Positions 3,801 to 24,864 of a stretch of 26,005 nucleotides of DNA are shown one piece after another. The stretch is from a virus, in IMG/VR virus record IMGVR_UViG_3300010354_018205, positions 1 to 26,005 of that record. One strand, given 5' to 3'. The first letter of the stretch is position 1, and every line of letters starts with the position of its first letter. The notes beneath the pieces are model-generated. The model was not told the origin of the DNA and made no database searches. It saw only the letters and a program-made list of their open reading frames with translations. Position numbers and translations under genes: made by a program.

Positions 3801-4184
3801 TTATTTTTTTTTTCTACTTGTTCTACCGTTACCTTTATTTTTATTTTTATATGTTGGTGTTTGTGAATGGCAATTTGGACAGAGCAATCTTAAATTTTCA
3901 ATTCTGTTGTCTGTAGAATTTCCATTAATGTGATCCAATTCAAGGACTAAAGTATTTCCATTCCATTCATTTATGTTACATATAATGCATTTATTTTGTT
4001 GAACTTCAGACAAAAATCTTTTTTTAACTCTTATTCCGGGGACAATTTTTTTGGATAACCAATTATCTATCGTTACTTTATATTCGTATTGTTTTTGGCA
4101 TTTATTTGAACAATACTTTCCTTTTTGACATTGTTCTCTGTATTTAAATGTTTTATCGCAACTTAAACATTTTCCTATCTTCAT
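3801..4184 (-). CDS. Free-standing HNH endonuclease with N-terminal zinc ribbon
   Basis: 127 residues. The N-terminus has CLSCDKTF and YCSNKC (Zn-ribbon). The C-terminal HNH domain has CIIC, LELDHINGNSTDNRIENLRLLCPNCH, that is D-H, N and H residues with a structural zinc formed by the two C-x2-C pairs. This is a common phage and bacterial HNH family, often homing endonucleases that cut at intron-less or competitor sites. It sits between tRNA-Thr and tRNA-Tyr, a typical invasion point. GAGG precedes the ATG. The tail is Lys/Asn-rich. Homing activity is inferred. Confidence 0.88.
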   Translation of the reverse strand: MKIGKCLSCDKTFKYREQCQKGKYCSNKCQKQYEYKVTIDNWLSKKIVPGIRVKKRFLSEVQQNKCIICNINEWNGNTLVLELDHINGNSTDNRIENLRLLCPNCHSQTPTYKNKNKGNGRTSRKKK

Positions 4185-10675: not shown

Positions 10676-12259
10676 TTATCGAGTTCTATATTTTTTCAAA
10701 AGAACTCTGTCAAGATAATCTTGTGCTGCTTTTGGTGTTTGAGAATTCAAACTAACTGGAGATATTCCTTGCAGAATTCCTGTTTCCACTTCAGGTGCGA
10801 ATTCTCTTGCTTCTTTTGCTTTTCTCTCATCAGTATCAAGCATTTGATTCAACATTCGTGCAACACGATTCATAAATGCCGTTTCGGATGGAGTTTCACC
10901 TCTATTATCTTCACTGAATCGATTTATTTTTTTACCACCAATTCCCAAGAATCCACCTTGAGTAGCTTGTCTTCCGCCAAATAATTTATGTGCTTCACCT
11001 CTTTGCAATGCGTAAGCTGCCATTGCTAATTTTTCTTGTTCACTTAATTTATTCCATGCTTCTGATTCTGGTACAACATAACCCTTAAATTCTGGAATTT
11101 TAACACCAAGATTTACTTGTGGAATCTCTGGTTTTTTTGTTGTTTCAATTTCTTGTTCTGGAAATATTGGAAATTGTCCTCTTTCAACATCAAATGGGAA
11201 GTTATCTTGAGGTGCTGGTGCTGGTGCTGGTTCTGGAAATATTGGAAATTGTCCTCTTTCAACATCAAATGGGAAGTTACCTTGAGGCATTGCAGTTGGA
11301 ACAGAAGTAGAAACAGTAGAAGGTTTAGTTGGTATTTCTGGCATTCTCTTGACAACCGAGCTTCCTTTATTCTTCTGTTTTCTAGCTCTGCTTTCTGGAG
11401 TTGTAGGTGCTAAAGCTCCGCCTTCAACTTTATCATACCAAGCCTTTGGTGTTCCAAACTGTGGAATATTTTTTGGCCTACCACGCATAGTATAAAATTG
11501 CGGAGTATTGTAAGCTGGTGATTCACCGGGACCAGCTGTTGGCGACCAAGTTGGCGAACCTTTTGCAGCAAGATCAAAAAATAATTGACGGTGTTGTGGA
11601 TTTCTTGGGTCGTAATCTTGACCAGTCGCGGTTTTAAAATCACCTTGAGTTACTTGATAAACTGGGCTAATTTTTGAAGCTGATTTTCTTTCTGCATCAA
11701 CGGCTGCTGAAGCTTGTCTTGATTTTTCAAAAGCCTCTTCTGAACCTTCTTTGCCCATTAGGTCAAATGCACTTTTTGCTGCATCATAAGCTTCTTGTTC
11801 TGCTGCTGTTTTTGGTGTTGTGGTAAAGGTTCCAAAAGGCAAATTGGAAAATTGTTTTCCAGCTTTAACTCTTTGTATTCCTGTTTCTAATTTTTTACCT
11901 TGTTCATCTCTAATTCTTTCTTGACCTTCTGGGCTTAATTGATCTTCTAGTTCTGCAATTTTACTTGCAACCCCAGGGTCTACACCACCACTAGCTTCTT
12001 GTCTGGCTGCAACCCTTTTCATTCTATTCAAAAGATCTTGTGCTTCTTTTGTTTTTGCTTTTACCATTCCGCCAAGTCTTTTTTGGAAATCATAATCTGG
12101 ACTATCAGATACAACTGATGGGCTGTAACTTGTCGCGGGTGCTGGTGCAGTTGTTGGTGCGCTTGCACCTCCGGTGGTTGGCATATAATAAAAAGAACCA
12201 CCTGTTCCTAGTGAGGCTTCAGTTACATAAGAAATGATAAAGTCAGAAAGTTTTTTCAT
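10676..12259 (-). CDS. Large late protein with capsid-targeting-like leader
   Basis: 527 residues. MKKLSDFIISYVTE|ASLG has an L-x-E-type (V-T-E) end at residue 14 and may be a cleaved targeting peptide. Then comes an Ala/Pro/Thr-rich linker, a charged helical segment (about 60-190), an ordered core around VYQVTQGDFKTATGQDY and Pro/Trp-rich parts. The 25-residue duplication QGNFPFDVERGQFPIFPEP occurs twice, near 300-355. The C-terminal helical stretch precedes YRTR. A clear AGGAT ribosome-binding site precedes the ATG, 13 nt after the upstream stop. No enzyme motif; virion-internal role inferred. Confidence 0.7.
   Translation of the reverse strand: MKKLSDFIISYVTEASLGTGGSFYYMPTTGGASAPTTAPAPATSYSPSVVSDSPDYDFQKRLGGMVKAKTKEAQDLLNRMKRVAARQEASGGVDPGVASKIAELEDQLSPEGQERIRDEQGKKLETGIQRVKAGKQFSNLPFGTFTTTPKTAAEQEAYDAAKSAFDLMGKEGSEEAFEKSRQASAAVDAERKSASKISPVYQVTQGDFKTATGQDYDPRNPQHRQLFFDLAAKGSPTWSPTAGPGESPAYNTPQFYTMRGRPKNIPQFGTPKAWYDKVEGGALAPTTPESRARKQKNKGSSVVKRMPEIPTKPSTVSTSVPTAMPQGNFPFDVERGQFPIFPEPAPAPAPQDNFPFDVERGQFPIFPEQEIETTKKPEIPQVNLGVKIPEFKGYVVPESEAWNKLSEQEKLAMAAYALQRGEAHKLFGGRQATQGGFLGIGGKKINRFSEDNRGETPSETAFMNRVARMLNQMLDTDERKAKEAREFAPEVETGILQGISPVSLNSQTPKAAQDYLDRVLLKKYRTR
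11161..11283 (-). repeat. In-frame duplication, 75-bp unit
   Basis: The 48-nt segment starting gaaatattgg recurs at 11161 and 11236, separated by 75 bp, almost without change. It duplicates the FPFDVERGQFPIFPE segment of the 10676-12259 protein, with an Ala-Pro linker. Near-identity suggests a recent event. Confidence 0.85.
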
Positions 12260-15957: not shown

Positions 15958-16381
15958 TTTCTGCCCCAAGCAACTTTCTGTCAACTCTTGGATCGGTATT
16001 TATTTTATGATATTTAACTTCTGGTAATTGTTTTATGTTGAATTCCAGGAAGACCAAAAAAGACTTCAAATAGGAGTGGAGCCTTGGTTCCAATCTAAAA
16101 AATAATATTCTTGCGCAATTTTCTTCACCAAAAACATTTTTTAAAATTATTATGTGATTTATTATCAATCTTTCTCTGATTGATTTCAGAGTTTTTTGCT
16201 TGTGTATTTTTTGTATGAGTCTATTAACGTATTTTACACGTTTTAAATCATCCATGAACTCTGTTTTTCCAGAGCAATGGGAATTAAAATAATGAGTCTG
16301 ACAGAATTGTAAAAAACTTTCTTCTGTCAGACTTATATTATTTTGCATTAGTTCAGTGAGCGCATCCACAATCTTCACCAC
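15953..16381 (-). CDS. Conserved phage protein of unknown function (DUF7207-like)
   Basis: 142 residues. FMDDLKRVKYVNRLIQKIH, SIRERLIINHIIILKNVFG and LFFRLEPRLHSYLKSFLVFL match the shape of a short, conserved protein of T4-like phages: an F-x-x-D-L-x-R-x-K-Y start, a central L-I-x-N-H-I-I, and a C-terminal L-K-x-F-L-x-F-L. I believe this is DUF7207-type, but cannot confirm. Helical throughout. It overlaps the previous gene by 29 nt. L-T-E near residue 19 resembles a cleavage site, but is not at the usual distance. Confidence 0.7.
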   Translation of the reverse strand: MVKIVDALTELMQNNISLTEESFLQFCQTHYFNSHCSGKTEFMDDLKRVKYVNRLIQKIHKQKTLKSIRERLIINHIIILKNVFGEENCARILFFRLEPRLHSYLKSFLVFLEFNIKQLPEVKYHKINTDPRVDRKLLGAEI

Positions 16382-16883
16382 TCATGTCAGGGACTATTAC
16401 CATTTGCACTTTTCTGAGCATGTTTGGTTGTTTAACTACGGTTGCCACTAAACTCAAACCGTGACCTAATTTTTCTTTGATTCCGTCTCCTTGAGAGAAT
16501 CCAGTCTTATTAACATCATCATATGGATTTTGCCCATAAACACCAATGTAAGGACTGCCGTATTGATAAAGCTTAATTACATTGTCGCCATCTTGAAGAG
16601 CGTTCTTTTGTTGAAAATCAAATCCAAAGTGATTTAATTTTTGTTTTACGACGTTAAGCACATGGTCAGGATCAATATAGTCTCTCTGACTAAGGCCATA
16701 AAGAAGAGCATTGATTGCATCGATTGATCTGGGAAGTTGAATGTTAAAAGTTCCCTTGTCGGTAAGGGCGCTTGGCATTCTTGGGGCTTGAGGATCACCG
16801 ATAAACAAACCACCACCGAAGGTTTGTTCACCTGAATTTTCTGTTAAGGGACCGGTTTGTTTTAATAATTCTTTAAATTTCAT
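16353..16883 (-). CDS. Late protein with capsid-targeting-like leader (MKFKELLKQTGPLTE)
   Basis: 176 residues. The first 15 residues end in L-T-E and share M-x-F-K-E-L-L with the 18049-20427 product, suggesting a common capsid-targeting peptide cleaved by the prohead protease. The body has a Gly-rich start (EQTFGGGLFIGD), an ordered core (NIQLPRSIDAINALLYGLSQ, FGFDFQQKNALQDGDNVIKL) and a C-terminal Cys motif GEDCGCAH. The ATG lies 9 nt after the late box. Role unknown; internal virion protein inferred. Confidence 0.7.
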   Translation of the reverse strand: MKFKELLKQTGPLTENSGEQTFGGGLFIGDPQAPRMPSALTDKGTFNIQLPRSIDAINALLYGLSQRDYIDPDHVLNVVKQKLNHFGFDFQQKNALQDGDNVIKLYQYGSPYIGVYGQNPYDDVNKTGFSQGDGIKEKLGHGLSLVATVVKQPNMLRKVQMVIVPDMSGEDCGCAH

Positions 16884-16900: not shown

Positions 16901-18049
16901 TCAATTAATTTTTCTTTGTTCGCACAATCCAAAAAGATCTGGATTATAGTTTTCTGGGTCTAAATTTTTATTCATATTTGCAACAATGTCTTCGCTGACT
17001 TTTTTCCACTTTCCGCCTTTTCCTTTATAGCATTTAGCTGCCCATGCATTAGCATATGCACTCGGGTAAACATCAAATTTTTTCTTTGCTTGGGCTATGC
17101 AAGAAGCCCATTTCTTGGGGTCTTTTGCTTTATTCTTTCCCTCTTCTAATAATTCAGATTCCTCTTTCAACATTGCGCTTACTGGTTTGGCACTCCAAGT
17201 TTTGCAGGCCCAGTATCGTGCTTTCCAGCGGGGTCCAGGGTTATCACAGTTGTGCCGAGCACGGAAATTACGACGACGAGCTGGATCGTCTCTTTTGATT
17301 TCCATATTAGGGTCACCAAAGTTTACTTTTACAACATTTCCTTTATCATTTTTTACGTAAACTTTATATTTCTTGACATCTCCGCGCATAATTTTGTTTA
17401 ATTTTACTTTTTTATTTTCTGATTCGTAAACACAAATTTTTTCACCAAATTCGTTGTATGAAACTTCCTCTACATTGTCCAAAAATCCCATTACAGTTTC
17501 TTCCAAGAACTCTTGTGTGATTTCATTACCTTCTTCATCACTGAATCTGACTGTATATACTCCATTCTCAAAAATAACTTCATCTACATCTAAAATTTCT
17601 CCGGATTCGTTTATGATTAGATCACATGGAAGCAATTCTTGAACTTCAATTGGGGTAAAATTCATCTTAAAAACTTTTGAAGCGCTTTCCACAATGAATG
17701 TGTCGAAAGATTCTTTTACCTCTGTGACTCCAGTTTTGACAAATACTGGTTTTTTACCTTTTCCTTTTACATCGCCCTTTTCTGCACGACCTGCTTTCTT
17801 TTGTGCTGAACGTTTTCTTCTAACAAATGAGGCGATACCCTCTTTGCCCAGTTTCTTTGCTTTTTGTTTGCTCAAACAAGCTGAATATGGGGCTCCTTCC
17901 TCTGCATCACCACACTTACCAACTCTCTCGCCTTTTGTGTTATAGCGATCCCAGCCAGGACCACCGCCAGCAGATTCTTTATTGAACCATTTGCCTAGTC
18001 CAGATTTTTCAAATACTTTTTCAAGTAATATTTTTGTACGGGAATTCAT
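16901..18049 (-). CDS. Late mosaic protein of repeated phage motifs
   Basis: 382 residues from MNSRTKILLE (leader ending L-L-E). The start is the ATG in TAATG at the upstream stop, not the in-frame TTG 9 nt earlier. Modules seen: GPGWDRYNTKGERVGKCGDA ... YSACLSKQKAKKLGKEGIASFVRRKRS (a motif of phage proteins of unknown function), a beta-rich centre (about 125-225), NFGDPNMEIKRDDPARRRNF ... RARHNCDNPGPRWKARYWACKTW, and WASCIAQAKKKFDVYPSAYANAWAAKCY with a Gly/Lys end. Six or more Cys residues lie in these modules. Each module resembles a domain of unknown function that recurs in marine phages. Structural or packaging role inferred. Confidence 0.7.
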   Translation of the reverse strand: MNSRTKILLEKVFEKSGLGKWFNKESAGGGPGWDRYNTKGERVGKCGDAEEGAPYSACLSKQKAKKLGKEGIASFVRRKRSAQKKAGRAEKGDVKGKGKKPVFVKTGVTEVKESFDTFIVESASKVFKMNFTPIEVQELLPCDLIINESGEILDVDEVIFENGVYTVRFSDEEGNEITQEFLEETVMGFLDNVEEVSYNEFGEKICVYESENKKVKLNKIMRGDVKKYKVYVKNDKGNVVKVNFGDPNMEIKRDDPARRRNFRARHNCDNPGPRWKARYWACKTWSAKPVSAMLKEESELLEEGKNKAKDPKKWASCIAQAKKKFDVYPSAYANAWAAKCYKGKGGKWKKVSEDIVANMNKNLDPENYNPDLFGLCEQRKIN

Positions 18050-20427
18050 TACTTCCAATCCTTATTTTGTTTTTCACCTTTTTGATGGCCATTATCTGAC
18101 CTATTATCGGATTTATCACGAAGGCGTAAGTTATTTATACCATTTGAACCACCATTTCTAAGTGGTCTTTTGTGATCTACGTCTTTTCTGGAACCCTTTT
18201 TGACTTTTCCTTGGCGAATCAGTCTTTCTCTTGCTGCCGTTCTCTTGGCTCTTTCTTTTCTTTGTTTTGGTTTACCGTGGTAATTTCGGTATTCCATATC
18301 GTAATCTCTTTTGTATTCTTCATAAAAATGAGTGTTCAATTTATTCATTGCATACAATAAAATTTCTGGAGAGTGATTTATTCTGTTCAAAGCGTTGTTA
18401 AAAATTACTTTAAAATTGTCATTTTCCATCAAAACATTGCTGTTTGTAAGTAAAGATATTTCCTCTGAATCAACCAATCTTGCTTTTACCAAAGTATCCA
18501 AAACAAAGTTATTTGTAAGTGATTCAATTAACAAATCGTTTAACAGAAGTCCAGCATTTTCTGCAACTGTTTCTTTCATCGATCCTGTTTTTTCTACAGG
18601 AATTTTTACTGTTTTTTTACCTATTTTTACATAATTGTATTGTACAGTATTTAAATCTTTTGGAGTGAATCCTGGAAGCAAGCTTACATTTATATCAAAA
18701 TCCATATTTTTGGAGATATAATCTAAAGCTAATTCAACCGGATTTATTTGACCTTTTGGTATCAACAACGATTCAAGTGAAATTTCTTCAACGGGTTCTG
18801 TTTGCTCCACCACTGTTGAGAACTTTCTTAACATTTCTGATTGAGATTTTTTTGGTTTATCTACATTTTCGTCATTTATCAAATTAGAAGCTGGTTTTAC
18901 GGCAATGGTTGCGCTTCTAGCAATTTCATCAAAATACGAATCATCTAATCTAAAAATTCCATTTTGAGTCACCACGTGAGTTGGTGAAAAGTTTGGATCT
19001 TTGATATTGTCACCACGGTAATATGTCTTTAATATTGATTTTACAAATACATCAGAAAATTCAGATGGTTTGTTTGGAGTATTTTTGAAGAGAGTGGGAG
19101 TTGCTTTTGTTATTTCTTGTTGATAATTCTCCAAAGAAGCATATTTATTTAAATTGCCATTTTCATCAACAATCGGTCCTATATTTTGACCAGAATCATC
19201 TTTAAGAGGAGTTGCTTTAAGTTGCGCAAATAATTGGGGGTTATTTTTTATTTGAGAAAATGATTCTTTTGAAATTAAAAATTGATTAAATTTGGAACCA
19301 TTTGTTTGTACTGTGTCAATAAATTTAGCAACCTTTGGGTCATTTGATATTTCTGGAGAATTCAAAGCTTGCATTATTGCTCCTCCAATTACACCTCTGT
19401 AACCCTTGCTATTTTGATTGAATTTGTCGGTGGTTAAAGAAAATTCACCCCCGGAGGAGATTTTAAATTTATAGTTGCCACATTCCATATCCACATTTCC
19501 CTCTTCGAATGTGGTCTTTGTTCCGTTTTCTATGCTTGTTACTAGATTTTGAATGCACTGGTCGCCTATTTGTGAAAGAATTTTTTTTGCTTGTTCAAAT
19601 GCTTTCTTCGTGAATTCCAGAGCGTTGGGAGACAATGAAATAAATGAATCTAACTCTTGTTCGCTGGCTCCAGCTTTAATCTTGGCCAAGAATACGAGAG
19701 CGTTTAAAACTTGTTGATTGTATGATGTTGTTGAAAGCTGATTAATACCAAATTTTGTTGATAGCTTTTCAAATGTCATATCATCAAAATCTTGATTGGC
19801 TGGTGGATTACGTAATTGTTTAAAATATTCCTGTCTGATATCAATTGGCATTTGAATAAGTTGCTCGGGCGTCATCTGTGTCATCAATTGAAATATTTCT
19901 TGTTTTGATAGCCGCTTTGCTTTCTTTTCTGTTTCTGCAGGTTCTACCTTTTCCTCTTCTTTTTCAAATTTTTGCTCTTTTTCTTTTCTAGCCTCTTCTG
20001 TAGATTTTCCTTTTTTATCCTCTGGTTTTTCTTCTTTCTTTCTAATGTCACCAAATAGAAGTTTAGAAGCACCAGTTTGTTCGAAATTTTCATCTTTGAC
20101 CAAAGCACTAGCTTCGCCCATTGAAATTTCTTTGCCTTTGCTCAATACTTCATGAATTCCTTTGTTAAAGGAATCTTTAAAAATTAATTGAATCTTGCCA
20201 GATTTTGTTTTTACTGCGATAATTTCTTTGACAAGTTCTTCTTTTGATTTTCTGCTTCTTGGGACCTGTCTGGCTCTTTCTGCGCGTTTGCGTGCAGCAT
20301 CTTTGGCCTTATCGTCAGCAGAAGATCCTTTGATCTTCTCCTTTTCCATGGCCTCACCTGTGGTTCTAAAGGAATCGTTTCTGGAACGAGCAGCTTCCGT
20401 TAAATTTAATAATTCTTTGAAGTTCAT
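18049..20427 (-). CDS. Large capsid-targeted-like protein with C-terminal HNH nuclease domain
   Basis: 792 residues. The leader MNFKELLNLTE|AARS ends in L-T-E and matches 16353. A basic and then a charged coiled region (about 25-175, KEEKPEDKKGKSTEE) precede a mixed ordered body (about 200-700). The C-terminus, about residues 715-785, has a basic run, KGSRKDVDHKRPLRNGGSNG and INNLRLRDKSDNRSDNG. This is the phage HNH form, with D-H, N-G-G and N-L-R-x-x-x-x-x-x-N-R signature. Free-standing phage HNH proteins end alike. Fusion to a virion-type leader suggests a nuclease delivered with the DNA or acting in packaging. The late promoter is 7 nt upstream. Confidence 0.75.
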   Translation of the reverse strand: MNFKELLNLTEAARSRNDSFRTTGEAMEKEKIKGSSADDKAKDAARKRAERARQVPRSRKSKEELVKEIIAVKTKSGKIQLIFKDSFNKGIHEVLSKGKEISMGEASALVKDENFEQTGASKLLFGDIRKKEEKPEDKKGKSTEEARKEKEQKFEKEEEKVEPAETEKKAKRLSKQEIFQLMTQMTPEQLIQMPIDIRQEYFKQLRNPPANQDFDDMTFEKLSTKFGINQLSTTSYNQQVLNALVFLAKIKAGASEQELDSFISLSPNALEFTKKAFEQAKKILSQIGDQCIQNLVTSIENGTKTTFEEGNVDMECGNYKFKISSGGEFSLTTDKFNQNSKGYRGVIGGAIMQALNSPEISNDPKVAKFIDTVQTNGSKFNQFLISKESFSQIKNNPQLFAQLKATPLKDDSGQNIGPIVDENGNLNKYASLENYQQEITKATPTLFKNTPNKPSEFSDVFVKSILKTYYRGDNIKDPNFSPTHVVTQNGIFRLDDSYFDEIARSATIAVKPASNLINDENVDKPKKSQSEMLRKFSTVVEQTEPVEEISLESLLIPKGQINPVELALDYISKNMDFDINVSLLPGFTPKDLNTVQYNYVKIGKKTVKIPVEKTGSMKETVAENAGLLLNDLLIESLTNNFVLDTLVKARLVDSEEISLLTNSNVLMENDNFKVIFNNALNRINHSPEILLYAMNKLNTHFYEEYKRDYDMEYRNYHGKPKQRKERAKRTAARERLIRQGKVKKGSRKDVDHKRPLRNGGSNGINNLRLRDKSDNRSDNGHQKGEKQNKDWK

Positions 20428-20448: not shown

Positions 20449-21027
20449 TTAAGGTTCCAAGGGATTAAACAATTTTAAGTTTTTATAGCTTTTGGCTTTT
20501 CCTCTTGCCACCTTATAAAGATTACTTTTATTTAAATTATTAATTTTTGCATATTCGGCTATGTTTTCTATATAAAACACTTCTTTAGTTACAATATTTT
20601 GAAAGGTTTCACCATTGTAAGTTATAACTTTTGGCTTTTTCTTTTCCTTAACATTTTCATGGGAGCCCACTGTTTCTTTAACTGCTCTGATTTCTACTGC
20701 TGTCCAGCCTTTGTAAGTTTTTCTTTTTCCATTCAAAAGTTCACAAATTTTTACAGCTGTGAGTCCATGCTGTTTTCCAAATTCGGTCATATTTTCAAAA
20801 AAAGTTTTCTCACCTGTGTCAACTCGCTTAAGCCAATATCCATTCTTTTCTTGTGCTGGAGATTTCCATTTCCAATACCGACCTTCTTTTGTAAAGAAAC
20901 CACCATGCTCATTTATAAAGGCATCCCTGTTAAAGGATGCCCTTGAGTTATCATTCATTCTTATCCAAAATTTTGAACCACGTCGATTCACTTCATCTTC
21001 TAAGGTTTTTAATTCATTAATTTCCAT
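20449..21027 (-). CDS. Free-standing DNA-binding protein with homing-endonuclease-type repeats
   Basis: 192 residues. Two copies of a helix-turn-helix-like repeat are visible: FENMTEFGKQHGLTAVKICE with NGKRKTYKGWT (about 77-112) and IENIAEYAKINNLNKSNLYK with ARGKAKSYKNLKL (about 150-190). These resemble NUMOD-type DNA-binding modules of homing endonucleases. No GIY-YIG or HNH catalytic motif is seen, so it may be a remnant or a recognition-only protein. The N-terminal third (RGSKFWIRMNDNSR) is basic. Overlaps the exonuclease gene by 11 nt. Confidence 0.6.
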   Translation of the reverse strand: MEINELKTLEDEVNRRGSKFWIRMNDNSRASFNRDAFINEHGGFFTKEGRYWKWKSPAQEKNGYWLKRVDTGEKTFFENMTEFGKQHGLTAVKICELLNGKRKTYKGWTAVEIRAVKETVGSHENVKEKKKPKVITYNGETFQNIVTKEVFYIENIAEYAKINNLNKSNLYKVARGKAKSYKNLKLFNPLEP

Positions 21028-23552: not shown

Positions 23553-24326
23553 TTATACTCTGAAGCTTGATTTTCTTTTTGGTTTTTCTGTAACAACAGA
23601 AACTTGTGTTCCGTCTGGATTAGTTACTACCTGGCTTGTTGGTGGAGCATTTCTATCTTTTCTTGGTTTAAAAATGTTTCCAGTTAATTTTTCAATTGCT
23701 TTTTCTTTGGTCATTCCTTGATACATTCTTTCATCTGTATCCATTGCCGGGGGAGTTGCCATTTTTGGTTCCGATGGTTCGCTCACTGATGGCTTTATAC
23801 CTTGAACAATATTGGTTCTTGGTAGCTGACCAAAATTTAAATTTAATGATCGAAATGAAGATCCCAAATCTAGGGAAGACTGACTTGATGTTGCAGTGTC
23901 AATAGTCGAAGAGGAAGCATCGGGATTTATTGGAGCAGTTTCTAATTCAAACTGTCCTCTTTTTTTTGAAAGTGTACTTGATCCCGGACCCATAGTACTC
24001 GACATCAATTGTTCATTTAAGTTAAAAATGTTTGTTGTGTAGTTGGCACCATTTCCTTTTGAGAATGGTTTTTCTGCGTTCATTCGATTTGTATAACTAT
24101 TCAAAAGACTTGATGTTCTATCTTTTACTTCACTGCTCATTTTTGAATAACCAAGAAGTGCTTGTCTTTTTTCCATTTCTGAAATGGGTTTAGTTACACC
24201 CATAACACCCTTTATGTCTTTCAAAAGATTTGGTTTGTTTACAGGTTTTTTAGACTCATTCAAGGCTTTTCCAGCAAAGAAATCCTTGACTTCCCAATAA
24301 AATTGTCTATTTTGTTTATTATCCAT
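23553..24326 (-). CDS. Ser/Asn-rich late protein with leader ending L-N-E
   Basis: 257 residues. MDNKQNRQFYWEVKDFFAGKALNE|SKK has L-N-E at 22-24, longer than the other leaders. It continues with a helical Lys-rich segment, then low-complexity Ser/Thr/Asn-rich sequence (about 110-170, DASSSTIDTATSSQSSLDLG). A basic C-terminus (RKDRNAPPTSQ, KPKRKSSFRV) ends it. First gene of this late run, with the late box 10 nt before the ATG. Unknown; likely virion. Confidence 0.66.
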   Translation of the reverse strand: MDNKQNRQFYWEVKDFFAGKALNESKKPVNKPNLLKDIKGVMGVTKPISEMEKRQALLGYSKMSSEVKDRTSSLLNSYTNRMNAEKPFSKGNGANYTTNIFNLNEQLMSSTMGPGSSTLSKKRGQFELETAPINPDASSSTIDTATSSQSSLDLGSSFRSLNLNFGQLPRTNIVQGIKPSVSEPSEPKMATPPAMDTDERMYQGMTKEKAIEKLTGNIFKPRKDRNAPPTSQVVTNPDGTQVSVVTEKPKRKSSFRV

Positions 24327-24336
24327 GGCTGTAAAA

Positions 24337-24344
24337 TATTTAGA
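24337..24344 (-). promoter_or_regulatory. Late promoter (TCTAAATA)
   Basis: Box 10 nt before the ATG at 24326. The + late box starts 5 bp away, so the pair is divergent. Confidence 0.58.
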
Positions 24345-24348
24345 TTTT

Positions 24349-24356
24349 CATAAATA
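24349..24356 (+). promoter_or_regulatory. Late promoter (CATAAATA)
   Basis: CATAAATA, then 10 nt with AAAGG to the ATG at 24367. It supports 24367 over the ATG at 24325 as the gene start. Confidence 0.6.
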
Positions 24357-24366
24357 CTTAAAAGGT

Positions 24367-24864
24367 ATGAAGAAGCAGGTTCTCCTGTTAAACCAAGACA
24401 ATACCCCACTCAATATTATCACTGTCGGTAAAGCTTTTAAGTTAATGTCAAATGATAAAGTTTGGGGTGATGAAACTACCACAGAATATTATGAAGTTGC
24501 ATCCGTTTCAAAAATTGTCAAGATACCTAAAATTTTAATCTTAAAATATTACGTAAAATTACCGTTTAGAAGAGCGGCACCCTCAAGAAAAAACATCTTG
24601 AGAAGAGATCAGTATGAATGCCAATACTGCGGTGTAGATCTTTGTGATAAAACAGCCACCGTAGATCATATTATTCCAAAATGCAAGGGTGGTGGTTCTA
24701 CTTGGGTAAATCTTGTTGCTGCTTGCAAAGATTGTAATTTGCACAAAGGAAATAGAACACCAAAAGAAGCAAAAATGGATCTCAAAAATAAACCAAAGGA
24801 ACCATCCTATGGATTCTTTTTTGATCACATGCTAATTACTTTTAGAAAGAAAAAAGATGCCTAA
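24367..24864 (+). CDS. HNH endonuclease (LLLNQDNTPLN family)
   Basis: 165 residues from MKKQVLLLNQDNTPLNIITV, a start that matches the usual opening of this bacterial HNH family (Q-V-L-x-L-N-x-D-x-x-P-L) and follows an AAAGG. Later: LPFRRAAPSRKNILRRDQYE, CQYCGVDL, then the catalytic core TVDHIIPKCKGGG, NLVAACKDCN and HKGNRT. The two C-x2-C pairs bind zinc, D-H and N-x-x-x-H carry the metal site. Some members cut invading DNA or are mobile; in phages the role is not known. Late promoter upstream. Confidence 0.9.
   Translation: MKKQVLLLNQDNTPLNIITVGKAFKLMSNDKVWGDETTTEYYEVASVSKIVKIPKILILKYYVKLPFRRAAPSRKNILRRDQYECQYCGVDLCDKTATVDHIIPKCKGGGSTWVNLVAACKDCNLHKGNRTPKEAKMDLKNKPKEPSYGFFFDHMLITFRKKKDA

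Follow-up and report, generated by a model that had tools for sequence, protein, structure and literature searches.

The minus strand of the window, the 26,005-nucleotide stretch of viral DNA analysed here, encodes a precursor of 792 residues (18049..20427, ATG at 20427, stop at 18049-18051) in which a large body ends in an HNH nuclease domain. The plus strand of the same interval is full of stops, so the ORF exists on the minus strand only. The same architecture is found in about 80 loci. What was computed is the fusion, its conservation, the active-site residues, the predicted fold, the conservation of the candidate cleavage sites and the presence of gp21 in relatives. We argue that these fit a head-targeted precursor that would be processed by gp21 and release a small nuclease, which would be ejected with the genome and cut DNA in the recipient cell. 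We hold this reading tentatively, at something short of an even chance, and weigh it below against four others.

The fusion across its relatives

A scan of viral contigs found 55 loci that encode relatives, nearly all full length and 47-80% identical. When the HNH part and the body were used as separate queries, each gave 80 loci. Counts of sites and conservation refer to 33 non-redundant relatives and those of active-site residues to 32 aligned sequences. The body with a C-terminal HNH is present in 33/33. There is no intact body without the HNH among the roughly 80 loci of the body scan, and no HNH of a close type is fused to another protein in the 80 loci of the HNH-part scan. The preliminary description had proposed this C-terminal fusion, and the homologue search demonstrates that it is real and conserved. 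The exceptions are L147, which is truncated at a contig end, L096, where the frame is incomplete, and L153, which has NNVR for NNLR. In another copy (L053:8001-10358) the body is partly out of frame, with 30 stops in a straight reading, which is either sequencing error or decay. Among genome contigs a single full-length relative was found, on a contig of 7,990 bp from a Chitinophagaceae MAG, which is too little evidence to identify a host.

The C-terminal 90 residues are the best conserved part of the protein (mean majority identity 0.82-0.92 over 33 sequences), and the 50 residues that precede the HNH are among the least conserved (0.41-0.48 over the same set). In pairwise comparisons the HNH piece has a dN/dS of 0.00-0.04, against 0.02-0.10 elsewhere. 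By these ratios the HNH domain is under the strongest purifying selection within the protein.

This bears on the idea that a homing or selfish HNH was fused here by chance. HNH genes are often mobile, and the gene directly upstream in 55/55 relatives (20449-21027, minus strand) encodes a NUMOD-type DNA-binding protein without an HNH, which is possibly a partner or a domesticated homing-endonuclease remnant. However, about 80 loci have the HNH in an identical place and none shows an empty site, the domain is the most strongly constrained part of the protein, and the cassette around the gene is kept in 55/55 relatives. We consider a chance insertion very improbable and dropped it since the distribution contradicts it.

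The HNH domain

Residues 704-789 match phrog_4590, a family of 100 positions with no assigned function, at E=2.4e-19. The Pfam HNH model scores 15.0 bits, below its cut-off of 21.4, but that gathering score is a curation threshold and not a biological criterion. The phrog_4590 match and the 55 loci that encode relatives mean that this is not a chance resemblance. The motif spans residues 748-781 (18085..18186, minus strand). The stretch quoted in the preliminary description is there, with residues 748-780 reading KDVDHKRPLRNGGSNGINNLRLRDKSDNRSDNG. All 32 aligned sequences have D751, H752, N766, N775 and R776, so the metal-site residues, whose loss in relatives had been named as grounds for rejecting the assignment, are retained within the fused family. 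The D-H...N...N arrangement would place the motif with I-HmuI among the HNH types.

A model built from an alignment of the C-terminal 97 residues with free-standing homologues has a helix-helix-beta-beta-alpha arrangement and a mean pLDDT of 76.4. The best PDB match is the Gme HNH nicking endonuclease (4h9d, Z 5.9), at a sequence identity of only 17%. EcoKMcrA, colicins E9 and E7, pyocin S2, Cas8-HNH and the Cas9 HNH also match. A sequence search of the PDB with the HNH profile found no match. The structural scores are modest (Z up to 5.9), but the top matches are nearly all HNH nucleases and agree with the sequence motif, so we regard the predicted HNH nuclease fold as firm. The model fits the beta-beta-alpha fold that had been suggested as a check.

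Members of phrog_4590 also occur as free-standing genes of 78-106 aa, for example gp12 of Vibrio phage ICP2 and gp36 of Salinivibrio phage CW02. They are homologous to the fused domain and about 40-54% identical to it, but have neither leader nor body, and some are without catalytic residues. They start with M-x-RDY or a few residues earlier. In other phages such a gene lies between a PD-(D/E)XK exonuclease and a helicase. ORF sizes had made these genes look like a packaging module, and this was dropped when the neighbours proved to be DNA polymerase, exonuclease and helicase. In five of them (L261, L267, L278, L286 and L292) DVAH or DIAH replaces DVDH and the middle Asn is lost. Judged by these substitutions they are probably an inactive branch of the family.

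The predicted released fragment, residues 704-792 (18052..18318, minus strand), has a mass of 10.7 kDa and a pI of 10.5; among relatives the net charge ranges from +15 to +22. A domain this basic might serve in the head to bind or condense DNA with its catalysis unused, and the loss of the D or N of the motif in some free-standing homologues would agree with that. We think this rather improbable, since the four catalytic residues are invariant in the fused family and the dN/dS of the domain is the lowest in the protein.

Leader, candidate protease sites and the virion

The first 11 residues, MNFKELLNLTE (20395..20427, minus strand), resemble a capsid-targeting leader. The LTE that the preliminary description reported is present at residues 9-11, with its E at 11, and a hydrophobic-x-E is kept at the leader in 30/33 relatives. 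The T4 prohead protease gp21 cuts after L/I-x-E, and the internal proteins of T4 are directed to the core by short propeptides at their N-termini; in IPIII the first 10 residues are enough (PMC9026906). T4 Alt is also processed near its C-terminus (PMC9026906), which can be compared with the candidate sites near the C-terminal HNH here.

The body, residues 12-668 (18424..20394, minus strand), has a pI of 6.5. It has no convincing match in Pfam, PHROG, phage records or the PDB, and its fold is unassigned. Confidence in the full-length model is only moderate (pLDDT 71, pTM 0.43), so the lack of a fold match does not establish that the fold is new. The earlier label of internal virion protein stands in part. 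Its sole basis is the T4-type capsid-targeting-like leader, and the body gives it no direct Pfam or PHROG support.

Residues 669-703 (18319..18423, minus strand) are the most variable stretch of the protein and are flanked by two candidate prohead-protease sites, E668 and E703. An L-x-E is kept at E668 in 33/33 relatives. Of the 33 relatives, 32 keep a hydrophobic-x-E where the HNH domain begins (E703 in the window) and L052 does not, but it is an L/I-x-E in only 24/33, the others having V, M or F at P3. Per 8-mer, hydrophobic-x-E has a background frequency of 0.11 over residues 175-700 and of 0.30 over residues 640-700, which include one site. It must be said that these counts come from related sequences and are not independent; the argument is that the motif is kept within the most variable stretch. 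A cut at E703 would also fall about where the free-standing homologues begin. Since a protease-type site lies at the domain boundary, the alignment suggests that the HNH is probably a releasable unit and not a permanent fusion. We dropped a stable fusion that merely anchors the nuclease, because the boundary site argues otherwise.

Peptidase_S77 (gp21) and T4 portal (gp20) genes are present in 3/3 relative records longer than 125 kb; no gp21 match was found in the window's own 26-kb fragment. In one of the long records there are also a gene resembling a scaffold and a gp23 capsid gene, the latter with LTE|D near the expected processing point; by capsid protein the nearest isolates of this record are cyanophages.

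The virion proteome of the Kyanoviridae phage S-CREM2, which infects Synechococcus, has been determined by mass spectrometry (PMC10665884). It includes the cytidylyltransferase gp154, the SAM hydrolase gp6, the kinase gp14, gp13, gp15 and the protease itself, although its authors caution that such proteins possibly co-purified (PMC10665884). Gp154, gp6, gp14, gp13, gp15 and also gp12 were detected in the particles and have leaders like that of the fusion, but they are unrelated by sequence to its body or HNH. The leaders include MKNFSSFLTEA in gp154, MKDFDSFLEE in gp6, VKRFDAFLTE in gp14 and MKDLHSFLTE in gp13. With a strict leader pattern, 6 of the 9 leader-bearing S-CREM2 proteins are detected in the virion (Fisher p=0.0065; p=0.0013 for non-structural proteins only), p-values that are indicative only since the pattern was written after some leaders had been seen. 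A loose pattern is not significantly enriched among the S-CREM2 virion proteins (p ~0.1). The virion-detected gp12 (L313:4205-6814) is annotated as a Cas9 nuclease, a label that looks doubtful. It has MAE|A in FASFMAEA near its N-terminus and a D-H..N-L..N motif that is HNH-like, and no Pfam domain was found in it. Going by this motif, gp12 may be a precedent for an HNH-like protein in a virion, not described as such.

Neighbourhood and proposed route

A phrog_298 exonuclease lies two genes upstream of the fusion gene in 55/55 relatives. From this proximity and from the neighbours of the free-standing homologues one can only infer that the nuclease might open DNA for the exonuclease. The same facts, with an exonuclease next but one here and exonuclease and helicase genes flanking the free-standing homologues elsewhere, suit a cytoplasmic nuclease of DNA metabolism that never enters the head and whose leader and Glu sites are incidental. 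This is improbable in our judgment. The leader is kept in 30/33 relatives, such leaders track virion proteins in S-CREM2, and similar ones are found on most neighbouring minus-strand ORFs. Between 753 and 24326 of the window, 15/23 minus-strand ORFs have [LIVM]-x-E in their first 45 residues versus 3/12 plus-strand ORFs. Examples on the minus strand are VTE|A in 10676-12259, LTE|N in 16353-16883 and LLE|D in 1445-2212. Going by these motifs, the minus-strand ORFs are possibly a cassette of head-tagged proteins. In ORF 1445-2212 long glycine and Gly-Ser runs follow the leader. Two other HNH genes are present in the window: an HNH_5 gene (24325-24864, plus strand) kept in 54/55 relatives and one at 3801-4184 (minus strand) that was not found among the 55.

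The cassette downstream of the fusion gene is partly common with a Kyanoviridae cassette, and S-CREM2 gp154 sits in such a partly syntenic cassette. Homologues of o15953 are found in Melnitz, HTVC008M, S-SSM5 and S-CREM2, a homologue of o16353 in Melnitz, and part of o16901 in HTVC008M and Melnitz. The body profile has no match among the ORFs of the Kyanoviridae cassette. In Methylophilales phage Melnitz-3 a protein (L302:2187-4139) with the leader MKKFSEIIEA has a cytidylyltransferase-like start, and its C-terminal part is related to window ORF 16901-18058.

The neighbourhood also bears on a role in packaging. The HNH could act inside the prohead in branch resolution, nicking or help to the terminase, in the manner of HK97 gp74, and ejection would then be irrelevant. 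Other phages are known to use HNH proteins in packaging, and the leader would bring the enzyme into the prohead when it is needed there. However, genes of the HK97 gp74 kind adjoin the terminase, whereas the neighbours kept in 52-55/55 relatives are the exonuclease, the NUMOD protein and leader-bearing unknowns, none of them recognised as a terminase. T4-like phages also already use gp17 and gp49. The preliminary description had offered use at packaging as an alternative, and the lack of terminase genes among the conserved neighbours weakens it. We consider it unlikely.

The reading we prefer is release and ejection of the nuclease. The precursor would enter a T4-type prohead core through its leader. 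A gp21-type prohead protease would cut after E11 and at E668 and/or E703, and the products would be a large internal protein and a separate HNH endonuclease, about 89 residues long and strongly basic, which resembles in this the small internal proteins that T4 ejects. This fragment would be ejected with the genome and would nick or cut DNA in the newly infected cell, where the host chromosome and resident or competing phage DNA are plausible targets. We infer the packaging, cleavage, ejection, activity and target of the fragment from the computed results. The model needs a safeguard for the genome packed beside the nuclease, and this counts against it.

The closest parallel is with T4 IPI, IPII, IPIII and Alt (PMC9026906, PMC12373910). 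Both systems have a short N-terminal leader ending in L-x-E, a gp21-type protease in the same phages and a small basic product, which for the fusion is a predicted one. The characterised T4 internal proteins inhibit restriction enzymes or ADP-ribosylate, whereas the cargo here is an HNH nuclease at the end of a 700-residue body that is unrelated to them by sequence. Phage polyvalent proteins (PMC5512222) are likewise virion-delivered, multi-part and expected to be split by proteolysis. Their splitting is ascribed to a built-in zincin-like peptidase, whereas the sites in the fusion fit a separate head protease. They also combine several unrelated effector domains, whereas the HNH is the sole recognisable effector here and the body matches no family or fold. 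The HNH, the capsid-targeting leader and gp21 processing are each already known, and a description of a leader-tagged virion nuclease fusion with a release site was not found in the open-licence literature searched. What appears new is that these parts are combined and that a conserved site would set the nuclease free, which makes it a variant on the T4 internal-protein theme.

More tentatively still, we suggest that in a clade of T4-like phages a head-processed precursor frees an HNH nuclease that would act as an injected effector before phage gene expression. If true, this raises the question of how the packaged genome survives beside the enzyme. Single-residue tests are straightforward here, given the L-x-E boundary and the conserved active site. 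T4-like heads carry many leader-tagged proteins of unknown function. If the nuclease is released on maturation, it follows that an enzyme that cuts DNA can be delivered in the way of the internal proteins, and that carrier and cargo can be parted by the head protease.
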